A DNA stretch of 51,976 nt from Bacteroidota bacterium (GTDB lineage: Bacteria; Bacteroidota; Bacteroidia; Palsa-965), in the NCBI GenBank assembly GCA_003151415.1, contig PLXK01000055.1:23201-75176 (forward strand), read 5' to 3'. How positions within the stretch are numbered: the stretch's first letter is position 1; each line of letters begins with the position of its first letter. The notes beneath the pieces are model-generated. The model was not told the DNA's origin and searched no databases. It saw only the letters and a list, made by a program, of their open reading frames with translations. Positions 20,142 to 33,896 of this stretch are shown here, piece after piece. The translations under genes were made by a program, and so were the position numbers.

Positions 20142-20412
20142 GCGCAGCTGCCCACCTGGAGCCCCGAAACGCTTTGATTGTAACACTCCTGCATTAAGCG
20201 TTCATTACCAAAACATCATCAATCCTCTTTTTTATGAAAAGGCAGATTCTTTCGTGCTGTTGCAAAACCATTGCTGCTAGCGGAAATTGAGGCATCCTTT
20301 CCGTGAAAACCGCTGTTTATCAACAAATCCATGTTGATGAGAACGCTGAATTTTACAAGGCGGTAATCTTTGTATAAACTGAATGTCCAACCTTTACGGA
20401 AACATTCAGGGC

Positions 20413-24172: not shown

Positions 24173-26338
24173 ATGACAAAGGCAGAGGAGATTTTCAGGC
24201 AAACGGACCAGATAGCAGGTCTGCAGGAACAGATACAGGCTTTAAACAAGGCTTCCTGGGAGATCAGACGTGCCTTGCCGAAAGATGCTCTTGAAATCTC
24301 GCTTCGCGCCAGGACTTTTTCGGAAAGTATAAATTACAAGGAAGGCCTGGCCTATTCTTACCGGAACTCCGGTACAGCCTACTTTTTATTGTCTCACTAC
24401 CACCAGGCCCTGATTGATCTGGAAAGGGCAGCCGCCTTTTTCGAATCCTCTCCCGACAGACAGGCCATGGCATCCACATTGAGATACATTGGCAATGTGT
24501 ATCAATCGATGAGTTTCTACGAACCCGCAATTGATTGTTACCAAAAAGCATTGTTGATTACAAGCAAGGAAAACAATGTAAAGGGCAGCGCCTATAACCT
24601 GTTGAACCTGGGTTACGTGTACGAGAAAATGCAAAAGCCCGGATTGGCGAAAACGTTTTTGCTCGAAGGCAAGAGAATGCTTGAAGAAATCAATGATGAG
24701 CTGGGACGCATCTATTTGCTCAACACCTTGGGTAATGTGACTTTTTCGGAAGGCCAGACAACGGAGGCTATAGCCTATATTCAGGAATCGCTTGATCTTT
24801 CCACAAAGATGAACTTTGTTCCCGGAATGGCCCTGGCCCGGAAAAGCCTCGGGATGTCGTTTTTGATGATGGACAAACACCAGCAAGCCTTAACCGAACT
24901 TTATGAAGGACTTCGTCTTGTTATGGAATCGGGCGAAACGGATCTGATCGCCGACATTCTTCGCCTTTTGAGCGAGACCTATGAGAAGAAGGGAGAATAT
25001 CCGCAAGCTCTGAGGTTTCACAAATTGTTTGAGTCCAAAAAAAGTGAGCTCAAGGAAATGAGTCAGACCATATTGATGAATGCCTTCCGGATGAAATCAG
25101 AAGTGGAACGCTCCCATCTTGAAAAGGAACAGTACAAAAAGGAAAACAAGGAACTCGAAAAAGCACGGAAGGAAATTGAACTCAAGAACAAGGAACTTGA
25201 ACGGTTTTCGATTGTTGCCAGCGAAACGGAAAACGTCATTTTGATCCTGGATCCGGACGGAACACTGGATTGGGTCAACCCCAGTTTCGAACGTGTCAAC
25301 GGATACACCCTGAACGAGTATAAGGAGAAGTACGGGCATACCATTTACGAGGCCAGCAACAACCCCGACATACGGAAGATCATTGACGAATGCATCGCCA
25401 GCAGAAAGGCCGTTTATTATGAATCGGCCAATACCCTGGAAAGCGGTAAAGTCATCTGGGAGAGTTCCACCTTAACGCCCATTTTCAATGAAAAAGGAGA
25501 ACTTAAGAAACTCATTATTATTGATACCGATGTGACGCGGAAAAAAAACAATGAGGAAATAATTAAAAAGAAAAACAAGGACATCACCGACAGCATTATT
25601 TACGCAAGACATTTGCAGGAAGCGATTCTGCCACCGCAGGAAAGCATTACAACCATTTTTCCTGAATCATTTATCTTATTCAGACCCAAAGACATCGTCA
25701 GCGGCGATTTTTACTGGTTCTCGGCAACCGAAGAGGTGGGTTTCCTGGCTGCGGCAGATTGCACCGGCCATGGAGTACCGGGTGCGTTTATGTCGGTTAT
25801 CGGCAATGAGCTTTTGAACATCAGTTTGCACGATCCTTCTGTGCGTGCCCCATCGGCAGCGCTGGGTATTCTGGACAGTAAAATCAAGGGTGTGTTCCGC
25901 AAGGGAAGAAAAGAAACACTCGCTCAGGATGGTATGGACATCGGCCTGCTTGTCTGGCATTTTAAAGACAACCTCATTCAGTTTTCGGGAGCGAAAAGAC
26001 CCCTGATTTTAATCCGCAACAATGAAGTCTCCGAATACGCCGGCGACAGGTATTCCATCGGAGGCAAGAATGCGGATTCCACGAAAACATTTACCGATAA
26101 AACATTTACCGCACAAAAAGGAGATATGCTTTATCTGTTTACAGACGGTTATTCGGACCAGTTTGGGGGCACGGCAGGTAAAAAATTCATGCACCGGCAA
26201 TTTGTAAAATTGTTGCTTCGCGTTTCTTCGCTGCCTCCCGAAAAACAAAAATCGGAAATCCAGAAAGCGTTTGAATCCTGGAAAGGCAAACAGGAACAGG
26301 TGGATGACATCCTGATTCTGGGCATCAGGATTCCCTGA
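24173..26338 (+). CDS. TPR-PAS-SpoIIE phosphatase signalling protein
   Basis: 721 residues, apparently cytosolic. Residues about 10-290 are TPR-like repeats (YRNSGTAYFLLSHYHQALID, LRYIGNVYQSMSFYEPAIDC). A coiled coil at about 290-345 leads to a PAS domain (about 345-460, VNPSFERVNGYTLNEYKEKY) with a C-terminal PAC part, then a second coiled coil and a SpoIIE/PP2C phosphatase (about 490-721) with metal ligands in GDFYWF, DCTGHGVPGAFMS and TDGYSDQFGG. Such phosphatases usually act on anti-sigma-factor antagonists; no such partner lies nearby. A TATCTTTA box sits about 15 bp before the start. The 3' end overlaps the convergent homoserine dehydrogenase gene by 14 bp. Confidence 0.88.
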   Translation: MTKAEEIFRQTDQIAGLQEQIQALNKASWEIRRALPKDALEISLRARTFSESINYKEGLAYSYRNSGTAYFLLSHYHQALIDLERAAAFFESSPDRQAMASTLRYIGNVYQSMSFYEPAIDCYQKALLITSKENNVKGSAYNLLNLGYVYEKMQKPGLAKTFLLEGKRMLEEINDELGRIYLLNTLGNVTFSEGQTTEAIAYIQESLDLSTKMNFVPGMALARKSLGMSFLMMDKHQQALTELYEGLRLVMESGETDLIADILRLLSETYEKKGEYPQALRFHKLFESKKSELKEMSQTILMNAFRMKSEVERSHLEKEQYKKENKELEKARKEIELKNKELERFSIVASETENVILILDPDGTLDWVNPSFERVNGYTLNEYKEKYGHTIYEASNNPDIRKIIDECIASRKAVYYESANTLESGKVIWESSTLTPIFNEKGELKKLIIIDTDVTRKKNNEEIIKKKNKDITDSIIYARHLQEAILPPQESITTIFPESFILFRPKDIVSGDFYWFSATEEVGFLAAADCTGHGVPGAFMSVIGNELLNISLHDPSVRAPSAALGILDSKIKGVFRKGRKETLAQDGMDIGLLVWHFKDNLIQFSGAKRPLILIRNNEVSEYAGDRYSIGGKNADSTKTFTDKTFTAQKGDMLYLFTDGYSDQFGGTAGKKFMHRQFVKLLLRVSSLPPEKQKSEIQKAFESWKGKQEQVDDILILGIRIP

Positions 26339-27545
26339 TGCTTTCCATGGCACACACAAACACCTTGCTTTCTTTGTTTCCTTTGAGCATAAACAGCGAA
26401 CGAAGGTTTACCCGGGCCACGATATAATTGGTATGTGAGGATCGGTATTCTTCTTCAATGCTGATTATTTCAATGCCCTTCAGTTCGGCTTTGTCTTTGA
26501 AGCGGATATAGACACGGATGGAAAAATCATTGTCAAGCAAATGGCCGCCCGCGATCTGATCACTTCCATTGATTCTCTTCTTCAGTTTTTTGTAAGCATA
26601 TTTATAATTGTACGTCAAGGCAGAAATATCCGAAAGTACGGCGCTTCCGGTGGGGTGGCTTCCGGCGCCTTTTCCGACAAACGTCTGCTTACACGAAAAA
26701 GCCCCTTCCACTTCCACTCCGTTGTATTCGTAAATGACATTGTAGAGTTCATCCGTCTTCTCGACAAAATGCGGCATCACGTAAACATGGAAGCCGCCGT
26801 TTGATTTGTATCCCATGCCAAGGAGTTTGATGCGAAGGCCCTTTTCCCTGGCATAGACGATGTCGTCGAAAGTGATGTTCTGAATGCCCAGGTTGAGCAC
26901 CATTTCGGGTTTCAGAACGACACCGAAGGAATGAACCGTGAGCAAAATGGTTTTGTATAAAGTATCATAGGCCGCCACATCCAGCCAGGGATTGCTTTCG
27001 GCAAAACCATTGCTTTGCGCATCGGAAAGGATTTCCTGATAGCCTTTGCTTTCCAGTTCCATGCGGGAGAGGATATAGTTGCAGGTGCCGTTGAGAATGC
27101 CCCGGAAACTGCTGAGCAATTCATTGTCATAATATTCCTCCAGGTTACGGATAATCGGAATGCTGCCACCGGCTGACCCCTCATAGATAAGAGCCGCATT
27201 GTTTTTTATCTGAAGCCTGTACAGCTCCTCAAAATTTTCTGCAAGCATTTTCTTGTTGGCGGAAACGACATTGAGGCCATTGTTCAGCGCTGCGCTGACA
27301 ATCTTGAACGCCTCGGCGGCATCATCAATCAGCTCGACAATCACATCGAGGTTGTTACGCCGAAGAATATCTTCCCGCTCATACGTAAAATAAGACATGG
27401 CAATTTTGCGTTTTTTGCTGCTGTCTTTCACGCAGATCTTTTCGATGTTGGCCTTGAGACTTTGACTTTGGTTCAAGACGTCATAGAGCCCCTGACCCAC
27501 ACACCCAAAACCAAATAAACCGATTGAAATTTCCTTTTCCGACAT
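26325..27545 (-). CDS. hom: Homoserine dehydrogenase
   Basis: 406 residues. N-terminal Rossmann loop GLFGFGCVGQGLYDV (9-23), then the family stretches SANKKML and EGSAGGSIPIIRNL, and GTCNYILSRM with the catalytic-domain signature. It reduces aspartate semialdehyde to homoserine, the branch to methionine and threonine. No N-terminal aspartokinase is fused; the short C-terminus may be an abbreviated ACT-like region. It is the last gene of the sulfur operon, 57 bp after cysH, and supplies the carbon skeleton that receives sulfide. This fits control by Met and Cys. Confidence 0.9.
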   Translation of the reverse strand: MSEKEISIGLFGFGCVGQGLYDVLNQSQSLKANIEKICVKDSSKKRKIAMSYFTYEREDILRRNNLDVIVELIDDAAEAFKIVSAALNNGLNVVSANKKMLAENFEELYRLQIKNNAALIYEGSAGGSIPIIRNLEEYYDNELLSSFRGILNGTCNYILSRMELESKGYQEILSDAQSNGFAESNPWLDVAAYDTLYKTILLTVHSFGVVLKPEMVLNLGIQNITFDDIVYAREKGLRIKLLGMGYKSNGGFHVYVMPHFVEKTDELYNVIYEYNGVEVEGAFSCKQTFVGKGAGSHPTGSAVLSDISALTYNYKYAYKKLKKRINGSDQIAGGHLLDNDFSIRVYIRFKDKAELKGIEIISIEEEYRSSHTNYIVARVNLRSLFMLKGNKESKVFVCAMESIRES

Positions 27546-27602: not shown

Positions 27603-28250
27603 CTATAAATGCAGACCACATTCCGTTTTTGATTTATTGATCCATCTTCCTTCCCTTGAATTTCCCCGGGTTGTGCAATGCGTGCATCCAACCGAATGAT
27701 ATCCCGAAACTTTAAGAGGATGTTCTGGCAAATGGTTGATTTGAATATAACGGTTCACGTCTTGTTCTGTTTGATCCAAAAGGGGATAGAATTTCAAAAT
27801 ACCGTTGCGTTCTTCAAAAACCGGAAGCTCGCTGCGGAAAGCGTTTTGCGTTTTCATCAGGCCCGAAACCCAGACATCGAATGCGGGTTTGATTGTTTCC
27901 AGCGGTTCAACCTTGTTTACACTGCAGCACAGATCCGGGTCTTTTTCCCAAGTCCTGTCCGTTTTTGTAAAGGCGTTTCGCCAGGCATCTCCTTTGAGTT
28001 CGATGACATTGAGGGGAAAGGATTCGGAAAGCAGTTTTTTATAAGCCAGCGTTTCCGGAAAGTGGTATGTCGTATCCAGGAAATGGATGGCTTGTGAAGG
28101 CTGAATGCGGTTGAAAAGATGAAGTAAATAGATGGCGGTTGTTCCAAACGAAGAGGTCAGCAGGATTTTTGAAAAGTCCGTGTATAGCTTGGCAATCCTC
28201 TCTTCCGGATTGAGTGGGGTGTATTTCCTGTTTAATTCCGCTGTGCTCAT
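27603..28250 (-). CDS. cysH: APS/PAPS reductase, 4Fe-4S type
   Basis: 215 residues. The iron-sulfur ligands CC (108-109) and CTHC (189-192) mark the assimilatory APS-reductase type, and the catalytic Cys211 sits in the C-terminal TECGLHL. The PP-loop region SSFGTTAIYLLHL is near residue 33-45. It reduces activated sulfate to sulfite with thioredoxin. It lies between the siroheme-synthase/TauE fusion and homoserine dehydrogenase. The ATP sulfurylase genes (cysDN) are not in the window. Confidence 0.92.
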   Translation of the reverse strand: MSTAELNRKYTPLNPEERIAKLYTDFSKILLTSSFGTTAIYLLHLFNRIQPSQAIHFLDTTYHFPETLAYKKLLSESFPLNVIELKGDAWRNAFTKTDRTWEKDPDLCCSVNKVEPLETIKPAFDVWVSGLMKTQNAFRSELPVFEERNGILKFYPLLDQTEQDVNRYIQINHLPEHPLKVSGYHSVGCTHCTTRGNSREGRWINKSKTECGLHL

Positions 28251-28289: not shown

Positions 28290-29807
28290 TTACCGGGATA
28301 AACTCAGAAAGGCTAAAATAAGTATTCTCAAGCTAACAAGAATCACCAGTGTTCCAACAAGGATGAGTCCGGCCCGGATCGGAATCTTGTTTGAAAAATA
28401 AATGGAAAGCGGTGCCGCAAGCATGCTTCCGATGATAAGCCCGAACATGATCTGCCAGTGCTGAAGGCCGATAAGGGAAATAAAGGTCAGGGTGCTTATG
28501 ATGGCGACAAAAAATTTGGCCAGATGTGAGGAGCCTACGGCATATTTCAGATTGCGTCCCCCGGCAATAAGAGAAGTCGTGACAATGGGCCCCCAGCCAC
28601 CGCCGCCAACGGAATCCAGAAATCCGCCGGCAGCGGCGACGGGAACAATTTTCCGGATCTTTTTGGCTTTGGCGGCGTTTCTGTTTAATGCCCGGAAGAC
28701 AATAACGGCGCCCAGAAACAGGGTGTACAAAGCCACCAGGGGCTTGACCAGAAGAATGTACTCTTTGCTGATCAGAGACACCACAAGAGCGCCCGCAACA
28801 GCACCAAGCGCGCCGGGCAGAACGAGTTTTCGGAAAAGTTTCAGATTCACATTCTTGTAGCGCATGTATACCAGCGAGGATGAACCTGTGGTAAAGATTT
28901 CAGAAGCATGCATGCTGGCGCTGGCTACGGCAGGTGTAATTGCCGGAATACCCAGACTCAGCAAAAAGGTGGTCACACTCACTCCATAGGCCATCCCCAG
29001 TGCACCATCGATCATCTGGGCCACAAACCCTCCGGCCATATAGAGGAGCAAATGACTGTCGGTGTTGTTGTAAATGGCGGAAGTCAGATTCCTCAGGCGT
29101 TCGGCAGTTAAAAAAGAGAACAAAAGATGACCGGCAAACATCAACAGAATGACAACAAGCGAATAAAAAGAGGCAACGCGCACACGTTTCAAAACGTTCC
29201 GTCTTTTGTCTGTTTTGTTTTCGACAAGAAGAGACGTCAGGGCATTGAGGCGTTTCATTTTTTCAGAAAGATCGCCTTTCAGGTCCCTGCGGATGGAGGA
29301 AAGATTTTCAAGCACTTCCTGGGTTTCATCCGGAAACACATCATCCAGCACTTCCCTGAATCTTTTGGCCATTGTGGGCGATTTGCCGTTTGTGCTGATG
29401 GCGATTTTCAGATCTCCCCGGCTCACGACAGCACCCAGGTAGAAATCGCACAGATCGGGCGTGTCGGCAATGTTCACAAGCAGCCGCTGTTGCCGCGCCT
29501 CTTTTTTGATCCGTTCTGCAAGAAGCCTGTCGCCGGTTGCGCTGATCACCAAATCCGTCTGGTCGAGGTCTGTTGTTTGGTAAGGCTTTTGTTTCAGAAC
29601 AAGACGGGGATAACGTTGTTTCAGCGCGATTATTTCCGGAGAAATACGGGATGCAACCAAAACCACCTGCGTGTCGGGGCTGTTGGAGAGAACGGCTGTA
29701 ATTTTCTCCAATGCAATTTTCCCTCCGCCAACAATCAGAACGCGAAAAGCCTCCATCTTCAAAAAGACGGGAAACAATTTGTTATGTCCTGTATCTGTGT
29801 CTGTCAT
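28290..29807 (-). CDS. Fusion of siroheme synthase (precorrin-2 dehydrogenase) and TauE/SafE (TSUP) transporter
   Basis: 505 residues. Residues 15-200 are a Met8/CysG N-terminal-like precorrin-2 dehydrogenase/ferrochelatase: VLIVGGGKIALEKI, then VNIADTPDLCDF (Asp115 matches the family's catalytic Asp) and ISTNGKSPTMAKRFRE. Residues about 211-505 are a TSUP permease with eight or so membrane segments and the typical AAGGFLDSVGGGGWGP. One half makes siroheme for the sulfite reductase; the other may move sulfite, sulfate or another sulfur compound. The frame is continuous, so fusion by sequencing error is unlikely. It sits between cobA and cysH, where both activities belong. Confidence 0.88.
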   Translation of the reverse strand: MTDTDTGHNKLFPVFLKMEAFRVLIVGGGKIALEKITAVLSNSPDTQVVLVASRISPEIIALKQRYPRLVLKQKPYQTTDLDQTDLVISATGDRLLAERIKKEARQQRLLVNIADTPDLCDFYLGAVVSRGDLKIAISTNGKSPTMAKRFREVLDDVFPDETQEVLENLSSIRRDLKGDLSEKMKRLNALTSLLVENKTDKRRNVLKRVRVASFYSLVVILLMFAGHLLFSFLTAERLRNLTSAIYNNTDSHLLLYMAGGFVAQMIDGALGMAYGVSVTTFLLSLGIPAITPAVASASMHASEIFTTGSSSLVYMRYKNVNLKLFRKLVLPGALGAVAGALVVSLISKEYILLVKPLVALYTLFLGAVIVFRALNRNAAKAKKIRKIVPVAAAGGFLDSVGGGGWGPIVTTSLIAGGRNLKYAVGSSHLAKFFVAIISTLTFISLIGLQHWQIMFGLIIGSMLAAPLSIYFSNKIPIRAGLILVGTLVILVSLRILILAFLSLSR

Positions 29808-29864: not shown

Positions 29865-30635
29865 TTAATTCAGCAGGTATTTCCAGTCTTTCAGATTCTT
29901 TGGAAAATCCCTGTGGTTTTTCACAACGTCTCCGATAACAAGGATTGCGGGACTTCCGATGCGTTCATCTTTTGCAATATCCAGAATGGTATCGATTGTA
30001 CCGATGGCCATATTTTCAGAAGGAAGAGACCCGTTCTGAATGATGGCAATGCCCGTATCCTGTTTTTCATGTTGCAGATAGAGTTCCACAATTTCTTCGA
30101 GTTTGGACAGGCCCATGAGTATGATGACCGTTGCCGAAGACTGGACAGCGAGCTTCAGATCTGCCGAAAGTTTTCCGGCCCCGGTTGTACCGGTAATGAC
30201 CCAAAAACTTTCGTTTGTTCCTCTGTGCGACACCGGGATTCCTGCCAGACCCGGTACGGCAATGCAGCTGGAAATGCCGGGAATGTATTCCGTTTCGATA
30301 TTGAACTGTTCGGCGTACAGAACCTCTTCATGACCACGGCCAAAAACAAAAGGATCGCCTCCTTTCAGGCGGACAACATGGCCATATTCAAAGGCAAAAT
30401 CGATGACCAGCGCATTGATCTGATCCTGTGAGTAGGCATGTTTGTTTTTTCTTTTGCCCACGAATATTTTCTTTATTCCCAGAGGCACATATTTGAGTAA
30501 TTCGGCATTGACAAGCGCATCGTACAAGACGATGTCTGCGGCAAGAAGCGCCTGAACACCCTTGACGGTGATCAGATCGGCATCGCCGGGGCCTGCTCCG
30601 ACAAGGGTAAGTTTGGGGCTGATAGTTGTTTTCAT
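29865..30635 (-). CDS. cobA: Uroporphyrinogen-III C-methyltransferase
   Basis: 256 residues. SAM-dependent tetrapyrrole methylase motifs: VGAGPGDADLITVKG (12-26), VRLKGGDPFVFGRG and PGISSCIAVPGLAGIPVSHR. It methylates uroporphyrinogen III twice to precorrin-2, the substrate of the next protein in the operon. In E. coli this activity is fused to the dehydrogenase in CysG; here it is separate and the dehydrogenase is fused to a transporter instead. Confidence 0.93.
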   Translation of the reverse strand: MKTTISPKLTLVGAGPGDADLITVKGVQALLAADIVLYDALVNAELLKYVPLGIKKIFVGKRKNKHAYSQDQINALVIDFAFEYGHVVRLKGGDPFVFGRGHEEVLYAEQFNIETEYIPGISSCIAVPGLAGIPVSHRGTNESFWVITGTTGAGKLSADLKLAVQSSATVIILMGLSKLEEIVELYLQHEKQDTGIAIIQNGSLPSENMAIGTIDTILDIAKDERIGSPAILVIGDVVKNHRDFPKNLKDWKYLLN

Positions 30636-30688: not shown

Positions 30689-32827
30689 CTAATCTTCTTT
30701 CGGGTTCTGTTTGAAATGTGTTTCGTTTTCCTTGTCTTGCCTGCTCCTGAAGAGCTCAGCATCTTTCAGGAAAACCTCCAGTTGGGCGCAATAGATTTCG
30801 GCGAATTCCCGTCCGGCTTGTTCCTGATTGATTTGAAGCACAACAGCTTTGAATGTTTGAGGGAAATCAAACAATCCGCTCTCCACAAAATGCTTGTCAA
30901 AATCGGTGATGATGCCGATCTGCGTGTTGCAATGCACATCTCTGGTCAGCAGCAAGGCTTTTGCCGCATGGATGAAGGAAGCGTAAACATGATAAACGGC
31001 ATCCGGGTAAGCAGCCGACTCAAGCGCTTCTTTGGCCAGTGTGAATTTTTCCCGGGATTCCAACAGAAGCGTTGAAACCAGATCGATCATGACCCCGGCA
31101 CATTCACCAACACCGATTTCGGTTTTGAATTTGTTCTGCTGTCCCCAGTCCATAAAATCTTCAGAAACAAGCGTGCTGTTGTCGGCGAGAGGTTTTAACA
31201 GCTGATAAAAATAATCTTTGCCCCTGAAATCATAATAATCATTGAAGCCCTGGCTTGTCAGTGCATGACGGCTGAAATCATCCAGAAGCAAACGCAGAAC
31301 AGCAGGGCCGCGCTTGCTCGGGAATTTAATTATTTTATCTGCTGTTCTTCCCAGCCCATTGCCCAGCGGGCCTCCGCCGAGAAGCAACTGGAGGGCGGGA
31401 ACAACATTCGCACCTGCCTTTGACGAGCTTCCGTGCAGGCCAATCTGGGCAAGACCATGTTGTCCGCAGGAGTTCATGCAGCCGCTGATTTTTATTTTAA
31501 TGTCATTGTTGTAAATGAGATCCGGATATTCCTCGTGAATTACTTTTTCAAGTTCGGCCGCAATTCCCGTGCTGCTCGAAATGCCCAGATTGCAGGTGTC
31601 GGTTCCGGGACAGGATGTAATATCGGCCACACTATTAAAACCCGGAACCGCAAGCCCGATTGCATCCAGTTCACGGAAAAGGGAAGGCAAAGCTTCTTTC
31701 TTTACATATTTCAAAAGGAAACCCTGATTGACGGTGATCCGGATATCATCGGCTGCATATCTTCCTGCGATTAAAACAAGTTCACGTGTTTTTTCGGAGC
31801 GGATGTTGCCAAGAGACACTTTGATGTACACGCCAAAATATCCCTGTTGTTTTTGTTCAAAAACATTCGTCTGTAACCAGGCGTGATAAGCGGCTGTGTT
31901 TTTTATCTTGAATGTGGTAAACACGGTATTGGTTTCGGCCCGTTTCACAGCAGCAGGAGTGCTGTCAATGGGAAAGGAAACCTGGTACAATGCCTTTTCT
32001 TCTTCCTCTGCCAGACGCAGCAATTCGGGCAAGCCTGTTTTGGCAAGTAAATATTTGAGACGCGCCTTGTGCCTGCTGTTTCGTTCTCCGTAACGGTCGA
32101 ACACGCGGATGATGGCTTCGGTAAAGGGAATGATCTTGTCCTCGCGCAAAAACTCAAAGGCTGTCTGGGCAAGCAAGGGCTGTGCACCGAGACCGCCCCC
32201 AATGAGCACTTTGAATCCGCGGATCATTTCGCCCTTGACAATATTTACTTTGGGTATAAAACCCAGATCGTGAATAAAGGTGAAAGCAGAATCTTCATCG
32301 CTGGATGAAAAAGCGATTTTGAATTTCCTGCCCAGCTCCTGTCCGAACGGCTTGCGCAGAAAATACCGGAAAACAGCATCGGCGTAGGGTGAAACGTCAA
32401 AGGGTTCTTTTGGATCGATTCCTGCTGCGGCAGAGGCGGTGACGTTTCTGACGGTATTGCCGCAGGCCTCGCGAAGGGTGATGTCATCTTCTTCCAGCCT
32501 GGCCCAGAGCTCGGGTGTTTTGTCCAAACTGACGTAATGCACCTGGATGTCCTGACGCGTTGTGAGATGGAGATTTCCGTTCGAGTATTCATCCGAGATG
32601 TCTGCCAGCCTGAGCAATTGCCTGCCGGTGACCTTTCCGAAGGGAAGTTTGATGCGGATCATTTGCACGCCTTGCTGTCGCTGACCATAAATGCCCCGGG
32701 CCAAACGAAGTGAACGGAATTTGTCCTCATTGAGGGAGCCTGTTCGGAAGGCGCTTATTTTCTTTTCAAGCTCAACAATGTCTTTTTCGACAAGCGGGTT
32801 TTCAAGTTCTGTACGAAAGCTTTGCAT
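30689..32827 (-). CDS. Siroheme sulfite (or nitrite) reductase with HEPN-like C-terminal extension
   Basis: 712 residues. Two ferredoxin-like half-domains (IRIKLPFGKVTGRQL near 58 and VSLGNIRSEKTREL near 337) and two siroheme/4Fe-4S domains follow the family plan. The cluster ligands are Cys406, Cys412, Cys450 and Cys454 (SCPGTDTC and GCMNSC). After about residue 575 comes an extra 135-residue helical domain (SREKFTLAKEALESAAYPDA and after) that looks like HEPN. Context with CysH, CobA and the peroxiredoxin makes sulfite the likely substrate. It lies 23 bp after the peroxiredoxin gene. Confidence 0.9.
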   Translation of the reverse strand: MQSFRTELENPLVEKDIVELEKKISAFRTGSLNEDKFRSLRLARGIYGQRQQGVQMIRIKLPFGKVTGRQLLRLADISDEYSNGNLHLTTRQDIQVHYVSLDKTPELWARLEEDDITLREACGNTVRNVTASAAAGIDPKEPFDVSPYADAVFRYFLRKPFGQELGRKFKIAFSSSDEDSAFTFIHDLGFIPKVNIVKGEMIRGFKVLIGGGLGAQPLLAQTAFEFLREDKIIPFTEAIIRVFDRYGERNSRHKARLKYLLAKTGLPELLRLAEEEEKALYQVSFPIDSTPAAVKRAETNTVFTTFKIKNTAAYHAWLQTNVFEQKQQGYFGVYIKVSLGNIRSEKTRELVLIAGRYAADDIRITVNQGFLLKYVKKEALPSLFRELDAIGLAVPGFNSVADITSCPGTDTCNLGISSSTGIAAELEKVIHEEYPDLIYNNDIKIKISGCMNSCGQHGLAQIGLHGSSSKAGANVVPALQLLLGGGPLGNGLGRTADKIIKFPSKRGPAVLRLLLDDFSRHALTSQGFNDYYDFRGKDYFYQLLKPLADNSTLVSEDFMDWGQQNKFKTEIGVGECAGVMIDLVSTLLLESREKFTLAKEALESAAYPDAVYHVYASFIHAAKALLLTRDVHCNTQIGIITDFDKHFVESGLFDFPQTFKAVVLQINQEQAGREFAEIYCAQLEVFLKDAELFRSRQDKENETHFKQNPKED

Positions 32828-32850: not shown

Positions 32851-33483
32851 TTAATTGGGTTGGGGCGTGGTTCGCAGGTAAGGCTTAATGAGCGTGAAGC
32901 CTTTTGGAAACAAAGCCGGTACGTCTTCGGTTTTAACGGAAGGGGCGATGACGACATCCTCGCCGGTCTTCCAGTTTGCCGGGGTGGCCACACTGTATTG
33001 AGCTGTGAGTTGCAGGGAATCGATGACGCGCAAGAGTTCATTGAAATTTCTGCCTGTGGATGCGGGATAGATAATGATCAGTTTTACCTTTTTATCCGGA
33101 TCAATGACAAACACCGAACGTACCGTGAATCTGTCGGATGCGTTGGGATGAACCATATCGTACAGATTGGCGATTTTGTAATCGGAGTCGGCAATAATGG
33201 GAAAGTTGACGGTGGTGTGTTGTGTTTCGTTGATGTCTTTCACCCAACCTTCGTGAGAGCTCAGCGGGTCGATGCTGAGTGCGATCACTTTCACATTTCT
33301 TTTGTCGAATTCGGACTTGAGTTTAGCCACCGTTCCCAGTTCGGTGGTGCAAACGGGTGTGTAATCGGCGGGGTGGGAGAAGAGCACTCCCCAGCTTTTT
33401 CCGAGCCAGTCGTAAAATGAAATAGGGCCTGCTGTCGATTCTGCTTTGAAGTCGGGTGCGATGTCGCCAAGTCGGAGTGTCAT
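32851..33483 (-). CDS. 1-Cys peroxiredoxin (Prx6/AhpC-TSA family)
   Basis: 210 residues with a single cysteine, the peroxidatic Cys45 in HPADYTPVCTTE. The Prx6-type C-terminal domain is present (LQLTAQYSVATPANW...). It reduces peroxides with an external thiol. It is the first structural gene after the double attenuator and is closely followed by the sulfite reductase, so thiol supply and peroxide defence would rise together when Cys or Met runs short. Confidence 0.92.
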   Translation of the reverse strand: MTLRLGDIAPDFKAESTAGPISFYDWLGKSWGVLFSHPADYTPVCTTELGTVAKLKSEFDKRNVKVIALSIDPLSSHEGWVKDINETQHTTVNFPIIADSDYKIANLYDMVHPNASDRFTVRSVFVIDPDKKVKLIIIYPASTGRNFNELLRVIDSLQLTAQYSVATPANWKTGEDVVIAPSVKTEDVPALFPKGFTLIKPYLRTTPQPN

Positions 33484-33538: not shown

Positions 33539-33581
33539 AAAAAACAAAAGCCCTTCCTGCTTGTGGCGGAAGGGCTTTTGT
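33539..33581 (-). terminator. Attenuator terminator T2 (proximal to the sulfur operon)
   Basis: On the minus strand ACAAAAGCCCTTCC (33581-33568) pairs perfectly with GGAAGGGCTTTTGT (33557-33544) around a 10-base loop and ends in six T. It lies 20 bases after the stop of leader peptide 2 and 55 bases before the peroxiredoxin start, where it must be overcome to express the operon. Confidence 0.9.
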
Positions 33582-33625
33582 TTTTCTCCTGGATTTTATT
33601 TCAGGGATAGGCAAAAATCTTCCGC
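33566..33625 (-). promoter_or_regulatory. Predicted antiterminator AT2
   Basis: GCGGAAG (33625-33619) pairs with CTTCCGC (33572-33566), and TTTTG (33616-33612) pairs with CAAAA (33580-33576), 12 base pairs separated by a small internal loop. The left strand overlaps the last codons of leader 2 (R29 K30 I31 F32), directly after the Cys/Met codons; the right strand is the 5' arm of T2. The two structures exclude each other. Confidence 0.75.
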
Positions 33626-33708
33626 ATCTGCGTCTGCATGCAGCAGCACATCGGGTTCTTCATTGTCATGTTTGCAGTTGAGGTCATGGTTTGCATTTCA
33701 ATTGGCAT
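33601..33708 (-). CDS. Leader peptide 2, Met/Cys-rich (attenuator)
   Basis: 35 residues from ATG 33708 with eight Met and three Cys, nearly a third of the peptide. The control run is MCCCMQTQM (20-28), followed by RKIFAYP and a stop. The codons TGC TGC TGC lie at 33648-33640. It reads like a classical amino-acid leader peptide: followed by an intrinsic terminator (T2) and by an alternative antiterminator whose left strand would be exposed by a ribosome stalled at the Cys/Met codons and covered by one that reaches the stop. The ATG abuts the T-run of T1, so this leader is only made on transcripts that passed the first gate. A longer in-frame TTG start (33867) exists but is not needed. Confidence 0.8.
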   Translation of the reverse strand: MPIEMQTMTSTANMTMKNPMCCCMQTQMRKIFAYP

Positions 33709-33737
33709 AAAAAAAGGGCTTTCTTTCGAAAAGCCCT
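33709..33737 (-). terminator. Attenuator terminator T1 (distal)
   Basis: On the minus strand AGGGCTTT (33737-33730) pairs with AAAGCCCT (33722-33715) around a 7-base loop and runs into six more T, immediately before the ATG of leader 2. It sits 40 bases after the stop of leader 1. Confidence 0.88.
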
Positions 33738-33769
33738 GTGCGTAGTATATCTTTAGCAGACAGCTTTTC
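33728..33769 (-). promoter_or_regulatory. Predicted antiterminator AT1
   Basis: GAAAAGC-TGT (33769-33760) pairs with ACA-GG-GCTTTTC (33739-33728): seven plus three base pairs with a 2-base bulge. The left strand starts 7 bases after the stop codon of leader 1, within reach of a terminating ribosome; the right strand is the 5' arm of T1. Confidence 0.7.
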
Positions 33770-33776
33770 CTGTATA

Positions 33777-33845
33777 TCAGCAACACATCATACAGCACGG
33801 GGTGCTGTTGGTGTTTATTGAGATATGGAAAAACGCTGTATTCAT
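33777..33845 (-). CDS. Leader peptide 1, ending CCMMCC (attenuator)
   Basis: 22 residues from ATG 33845; the last six codons before TGA are TGC TGT ATG ATG TGT TGC, giving CCMMCC. Four rare Cys and two Met in the final six codons cannot reasonably be chance so close to a terminator upstream of sulfur genes. The ATG lies about 16 bases after the predicted transcript start. A perfect hairpin, ACAGCAC-CCC-GTGCTGT (33808-33792), covers the first two Cys codons and could serve as the pause hairpin that lets the first ribosome catch up with RNA polymerase. There is no Shine-Dalgarno sequence, as is usual in this phylum. Confidence 0.8.
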   Translation of the reverse strand: MNTAFFHISINTNSTPCCMMCC

Positions 33846-33864: not shown

Positions 33865-33896
33865 CAAAGATATTGTCTTTTTTTGTTAGAAAACAA
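33865..33896 (-). promoter_or_regulatory. Promoter of the attenuator and sulfur operon
   Basis: TTG (33896-33894), 21 bases, then TATCTTTG (33872-33865): a full match to the Bacteroidota TTG/TAnnTTTG promoter. Transcription should start near 33861, 16 bases before leader 1. The same TTG-N21-TAnnTTTG spacing is seen before the gene at 37351. Confidence 0.75.

Follow-up and report, generated by a model that had tools for sequence, protein, structure and literature searches.

Putative serial leader-peptide attenuators rich in cysteine and methionine codons ahead of a sulfite reductase operon in a Bacteroidota bacterium

Two short leader ORFs rich in Cys and Met codons, each with an intrinsic terminator and a competing antiterminator, precede a sulfite reductase operon in the window (the whole stretch of 51,976 nucleotides of Bacteroidota DNA that was analysed). 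There is a strong case that they direct ribosome-mediated (Trp-type) transcription attenuation sensing Cys-tRNA, and possibly Met-tRNA, by means of two units in series, albeit in the absence of expression, ribosome-profiling or RNA 3'-end data. The anatomy of the units, their conservation, their placement and predicted switching, and some covariation, are shown by the analysis.

Both ORFs lie on the minus strand, between the genes for a B12-binding methylmalonyl-CoA mutase subunit (34368-33961) and a peroxiredoxin (33483-32851). Leader 2 (MQTMTSTANMTMKNPMCCCMQTQMRKIFAYP, followed by a stop codon; 33601..33708, minus strand), assigned by direct sequence reading and by homologues in relatives, runs from an ATG at 33708-33706 to a TGA at 33603-33601, giving the product MPIEMQTMTSTANMTMKNPMCCCMQTQMRKIFAYP, with 8 Met and 3 Cys in 35 residues. 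A second in-frame ATG, at 33696, is more likely to be the start, given that no gap separates the first ATG from the U-tract of terminator 1. The regulatory codons, Met-Cys-Cys-Cys-Met (33637..33651, minus strand, by direct reading), include Cys codons at 33648-33640 and form part of the motif MCCCMQTQM; this Cys cluster is conserved in the family, with synonymous TGC/TGT swaps.

Intrinsic terminator 2, including its six-U tract (33539..33583, minus strand, identified by folding), comprises a hairpin of -26.4 kcal/mol (33583-33542) and six T at 33544-33539. Its 5' arm, CAAAAGCCCUUCCGC (33566..33580, minus strand), is also the right arm of antiterminator 2, the left arm of which is GCGGAAGAUUUUUG (33612..33625, minus strand); both arms were assigned by duplex energy and alignment, and the left arm by constrained folding as well. 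The duplex formed by GCGGAAG.AUUUUUG (33625-33612) and the terminator arm (33580-33566) extends over some 12-13 bp, with an energy of -14.7 kcal/mol, and GCGGAAG begins at 33625, i.e. at the 15th base past the last Cys codon. The 178-nt leader 2 segment has a fold z of -4.2, none of 200 shuffles folding equally well. The initial annotation, made from sequence alone, had claimed a 35-residue leader of this Met and Cys content with the MCCCMQTQM motif, a strong terminator of its own with six T, pairing of GCGGAAG and TTTTG with the terminator 5' arm over 12 bp, and an antiterminator left strand beginning 15 bases after the last Cys codon; on the minus-strand reading and by duplex calculation, each of these held.

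Leader 1 (MNTAFFHISINTNSTPCCMMCC, followed by a stop codon; 33777..33845, minus strand), assigned by direct reading and congener conservation, is separated from leader 2 by intrinsic terminator 1 (33715..33737, minus strand, by folding). The left arm of antiterminator 1, GAAAAGCU (33762..33769, minus strand), pairs with GGCUUUUC in the terminator 1 5' arm (-10.5 kcal/mol, p 0.04 versus shuffles), and the leader 1 segment has a fold z of -4.5. The -7 promoter consensus of Bacteroidota is TAnnTTTG; a pattern match to it, TATCTTTG (33865..33872, minus strand), lies about 20 nt before leader 1, and such a box is found at the same place in nearly all related leader-1 regions, where 0.03 would be expected per 60 nt. 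A pattern search found no TAnnTTTG box between the leaders in the tandem loci of G000 (so labelled, as are other genomes and, with L, loci), G001, G003, G004, G008 and L191. From this arrangement it can be inferred that the attenuators most likely lie in series on one RNA; the inference rests on box placement, the transcript itself not having been observed.

The genes downstream, all on the minus strand, encode a 1-Cys-type peroxiredoxin (32851..33483; AhpC/TSA and 1-cysPrx_C domain matches), a NirA/CysI-like siroheme sulfite (or nitrite) reductase with a C-terminal HEPN-like region (30689..32827), a uroporphyrinogen-III C-methyltransferase (SUMT) of siroheme synthesis (29865..30635), a siroheme dehydrogenase (CysG N-terminal) fused to a TauE/SafE sulfite exporter domain (28290..29807), the phosphoadenylyl-sulfate reductase CysH (27603..28250) and a homoserine dehydrogenase (26325..27545). 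The HEPN match in the C-terminal extension of the reductase is borderline (22.1 bits against a cut-off of 22), and the siroheme dehydrogenase-TauE/SafE fusion is a single 505-aa protein. From gene content, the operon is inferred to serve conversion of sulfate to sulfide, supply of siroheme for the reductase, and entry to methionine via homoserine dehydrogenase.

In the proposed mechanism, when charged tRNA-Cys, and probably tRNA-Met, is plentiful, a ribosome would pass the Cys codons and reach the stop codon of each leader, where it would cover the antiterminator left arm, enabling the terminator to form and transcription to stop before the sulfur operon. Under cysteine shortage, a ribosome would stall on the Cys cluster with its front edge just short of the left arm, which, being free, would capture the terminator 5' arm, so that RNA polymerase would read through into the genes for the peroxiredoxin, sulfite reductase, siroheme synthesis, CysH and homoserine dehydrogenase. 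The presence of two units may give tighter repression or a graded response. That the leaders are translated, that ribosomes stall on them, which amino acid is sensed, which way the response runs and why there are two units are all matters of inference.

The switch was evaluated across a set of 29 leader modules with terminators. Compared with shuffles of itself, the segment from the last Cys codon to the terminator forms a stronger pairing with the terminator 5' arm (Fisher combined p 1.7e-20, a value overstated owing to the use of mononucleotide shuffles and related modules). The antiterminator starts 16 nt or less from the last Cys codon in 25 of 29 modules (15.8 expected, p 2e-4); in 24 of 29 (19 expected, p 0.02) it falls at least partly within the region that a ribosome at the stop codon would cover. 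When RNA up to the terminator loop, i.e. with the 3' arm not yet made, is folded under a 31-nt ribosome mask, the mean predicted capture of the terminator 5' arm is 8.9 nt with the ribosome at the first Cys codon, 8.5 at the last and 2.7 at the stop codon; 24/29 modules are predicted to switch by more than 2 nt between Cys stall and stop codon. For the window, predicted capture at the first Cys codon versus the stop codon is 12.9 versus 3.0 nt for leader 2 and 6.0 versus 0.1 nt for leader 1. Part of this contrast comes simply from masking any segment near the left arm, hence the importance of the placement control (the 25/29 and 24/29 above). In three second leaders (G003_L2, L191_L2 and L189), the left arm is predicted to stay exposed even when the ribosome has reached the stop codon.

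In an alignment of 11 second leaders, antiterminator pairing stands at 86%, compared with at most 58% for slid partners, and terminator pairing at 91%. Compensatory changes in the antiterminator (A-U/G-C and G-C/C-G) are present, but the covariation is modest, the helix being well conserved, and one alignment row (G009) is one base out of register. A search across the modules gave no consistent protector (1:2) hairpin enclosing the Cys codons (combined p 0.026), and the default state without translation is therefore unexplained by the model. An Rfam search of the window found no known riboswitch, T-box or leader at gathering score, and permissive thresholds yielded sub-threshold matches alone, mostly onto the terminator hairpin.

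A rival explanation is that attenuation is translational or Rho-dependent, as proposed for mycobacterial cys operons. In its favour are several metY and SUMT leaders with no recognisable intrinsic terminator, and the mycobacterial poly-Cys leaders, which lack one (PMC1262725; Canestrari 2020 as cited in PMC13236596). Against it, the leaders of the window and of its family each have a strong terminator, a U-tract and a matching antiterminator, and this possibility is considered very unlikely.

Conservation of both units is apparent within the genus. In two congeners, G003 and G001, whose peroxiredoxins are 84% and 83% identical to that of the window, both leaders, terminators and antiterminators are kept at the same places. 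Leader 1 ends in SNCCCMMCV and NTCCMMCI in the congeners and in STPCCMMCC in the window, and leader 2 ends in CMCMCCCMKIADAEFPDLT and MCCCMTMPQMRKIFSCS in the congeners. The N-terminal halves of the leaders have diverged within the genus and the Cys codons vary synonymously (TGCTGCTGC, TGTTGCTGT, TGTTGCTGC); thus, it is amino acid content, rather than bases, that is kept. In the family, three genomes (G004, G005, G008) have both leaders ahead of sulfite reductase and three more (G006, G007, G009) have at least one. Paired leaders are also present in 2/80 sulfite-reductase loci on genome contigs, ending in CGCCCMMCI and MCYMCCCCMRMRKGYVDR in L183, and in MMCCMMCI and MCMCFMCLRMRKDFTMRYCKS in L191. 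The initial annotation had named beforehand, as checks on its reading, conservation of the ORF and of the GCGGAAG/CTTCCGC pairing, as well as ribosome-masked folding. Relatives retain both the ORF and the pairing, the latter with compensating substitutions (CGGGAG/CTCCCG, CCGGAA/TTCCGG), and the masked folding switches as predicted; conservation, pairing and masked folding all support its view that a Met/Cys-rich peptide with a mutually exclusive structure around it is difficult to account for other than as an attenuator.

It has also to be considered whether the peptide is itself functional, e.g. in metal binding or redox sensing, with the terminators being ordinary. Cys- and Met-rich peptides are able to bind metals, and the first gene of the operon encodes a peroxiredoxin. 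By contrast, outside the Cys/Met cluster the leader peptides lack mutual resemblance beyond the genus, the first gene in most relatives is that for sulfite reductase, cysC or metY rather than peroxiredoxin, and a functional peptide would leave the antiterminators unexplained, all of which makes this proposal improbable in the extreme. Peroxiredoxin homologues in other families are mostly outside the operon and without leaders.

Leaders of this type, i.e. putative attenuator leaders, extend well beyond the family. Single Cys-rich leaders occur before sulfite reductase in Pedobacter, Mucilaginibacter, Pontibacter and others, and also before metX, SUMT, a homoserine dehydrogenase and an OprP-like porin. 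Most closer-type metY genes of the class have a Cys-rich leader, some doubled, and in the family of the window 7/10 cysC genes are preceded by a Cys/Met leader that has a terminator-like hairpin; no clear Cys leader was found for cysK/CBS-type genes within the family. With a criterion of three Cys in eight residues in the upstream gap, a Cys-rich sORF precedes 43/139 sulfur genes versus 29/390 other genes (p 1e-10). The latter figure, some 7% of unrelated genes, is what favours the view that the leaders are chance ORFs between unrelated terminators; against this, both units are conserved in position, codon content and pairing, and chance can be all but ruled out.

The metY leaders in Bacteroidia (L084, L085, L096, L102, L112, L113, L135, L143 and L151-L165) are often without a clear intrinsic terminator. 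The porin leader, at L225, has seven Cys (ending in SFRYCCCCCCC) and lies near a sulfite reductase gene, a location that hints that sulfate uptake may belong to the same regulon. At L127 (G004:C40), a 2-oxoacid:ferredoxin oxidoreductase alpha-subunit-like gene, which a sulfur sensor would not be expected to control, is preceded by an MCCCMMC leader complete with terminator and antiterminator. The raw excess of the exact MCCCM codon pattern in 395 genomes of the class (about 97 matches versus 7 for the reversed pattern) was given no weight because many matches are out-of-frame coincidences, repeatedly in ruvB-like genes; roughly twenty are sulfur leaders. A short Cys-rich ORF elsewhere in the window (MKRQILSCCCKTIAASGN; 20237-20293, plus strand), before a metallophosphoesterase-like gene, is probably a chance occurrence, since the TAATCTTTG box comes after the ORF.

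The extent to which Met, as well as Cys, is sensed is less clear. Across all leaders, some of which were found by a Met-containing pattern, Met makes up 37% of the non-Cys residues near Cys. In the 28 leaders found without reference to Met, it accounts for 42/147 non-Cys residues near a Cys (within two residues) versus 16/514 far from one (p 9e-18, odds ratio about 12). In 7/28 of these leaders no Met lies beside Cys; Cys is thus the constant element and Met a frequent partner. It may be that Met-tRNA is sensed besides Cys-tRNA, which would fit the targets homoserine dehydrogenase, metX and metY, but this is inferred, no response having been measured. The alternative, that Cys-tRNA alone is sensed and Met is incidental (reflecting spare starts, TG-repeat slippage or sequence freedom), draws support from Met-free Cys runs in distant lineages (CCCCCC, CCCC) and from other known sulfur leaders, which carry Cys alone (PMC8632094, PMC1262725). 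It is countered by the Met enrichment in leaders chosen by Cys content, by the recurrence of CCMMC and MCCCM in separate lineages, e.g. L183 and L191, and by the same methionine-related targets, such that the balance tips slightly against it.

In G001 and G003 a gene for tRNA-Cys(GCA) is located within the presumably attenuated operon, where it separates the peroxiredoxin and sulfite reductase genes; in G004 and G009 such a gene immediately follows the attenuator, and in G052 one belongs to the cysM-type operon. The loci with tRNA-Cys inside or directly after the attenuator are L010, L011, L048, L054 and L055. Another tRNA-Cys is encoded elsewhere in the genomes of G003, G009 and G052. A similarity search found no second tRNA-Cys in G001 and G004, though its absence is not proven, and the operon of the window has no tRNA-Cys. 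Neither these genes, nor the apparent location of both attenuators behind one shared promoter, nor the phylum-wide occurrence of such leaders at sulfur genes, had been recorded in the initial annotation. A bolder, and more tentative, joint reading is that of a Bacteroidota-wide leader-peptide sulfur regulon reading Cys-tRNA and Met-tRNA, with serial attenuators of the same logic on the sulfite-reductase operon and, in several species, tRNA-Cys inside the attenuated operon; stalling on Cys-tRNA shortage would then also raise tRNA-Cys itself.

As a mechanism this is textbook; what makes the case interesting is that the units form a serial pair, that Cys and Met occur together in them, and that such leaders are spread across the phylum. 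The control of sulfur assimilation in Bacteroidota is, to our knowledge, largely unknown; if the proposal is correct, a ribosome-based sensor of Cys, and perhaps Met, acting on sulfite reductase, cysC, metX and metY would fill the place of this missing phylum-wide control. The authors of a broad attenuator survey in 2010 (PMC2965389) wrote that they knew of no demonstrated case beyond Proteobacteria and Actinobacteria, other than their own new Firmicutes cases and an atypical ermC leader. Leader-peptide candidates before amino-acid operons in Flavobacterium psychrophilum and sORFs in 5' UTRs of B. thetaiotaomicron have been reported (PMC9723704, PMC7366714); the relevant main-text passages of these papers make no mention of a Cys/Met leader or of a sulfur operon. 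In the main texts of the open-licence literature searched, Bacteroidota leader peptides are mentioned in general alone, and an earlier description is not excluded; intrinsic-terminator cysteine attenuation would be brought to a phylum without a description in that literature.

The trp, his, thr and ilv leaders of E. coli are leader-peptide attenuators, those of thr and ilv sensing more than one amino acid. The units in the window resemble them in having a short ORF with codons for pathway amino acids, an intrinsic terminator, a mutually exclusive antiterminator and, as proposed, a ribosome position that decides between the two; of the features that define an attenuator, clustered cognate codons, an intrinsic terminator, an excluding antiterminator and (as predicted) stall/stop geometry are present. 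They differ in their Cys/Met codons, their sulfur operon, their occurrence in Bacteroidota, the presence of two serial units and the lack of a clear protector hairpin. The uORFC-8-2 motif, found upstream of cysS in Rhodobacterales, likewise combines a uORF carrying Cys codons in tandem with an intrinsic terminator downstream (PMC8632094). By contrast with the leaders here, it belongs to Alphaproteobacteria and a cysteinyl-tRNA synthetase gene, and has two Cys codons, a single unit and no reported Met; the leaders here fall outside this motif, the genes downstream being for sulfur assimilation in Bacteroidota, not cysS of Rhodobacterales.

Leader peptides with Cys runs are also known for cys/cbs operons of Mycobacterium, Propionibacterium and Bifidobacterium (PMC1262725; Canestrari et al. 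2020 as cited in PMC13236596). These are alike in placing a short Cys-run ORF before a sulfur-assimilation operon, and are cysteine-responsive in mycobacteria, but lack an intrinsic terminator, are translational or Rho-dependent, have the Cys run at the stop codon and are single. A precedent for a 5' leader that contains two consecutive leader ORFs, with attenuation-like control, is provided by Salmonella mgtCBR (PMC3641672), with the proviso that for the window a common transcript is inferred from the promoter box, not observed. The mgtCBR leader ORFs respond to different signals (ATP and proline). Unlike those of this Mg2+ transporter operon, both leaders in the window carry Cys and Met codons, a likeness of codon content rather than of measured response; if borne out, they would be a clear case of two same-signal attenuators in series.
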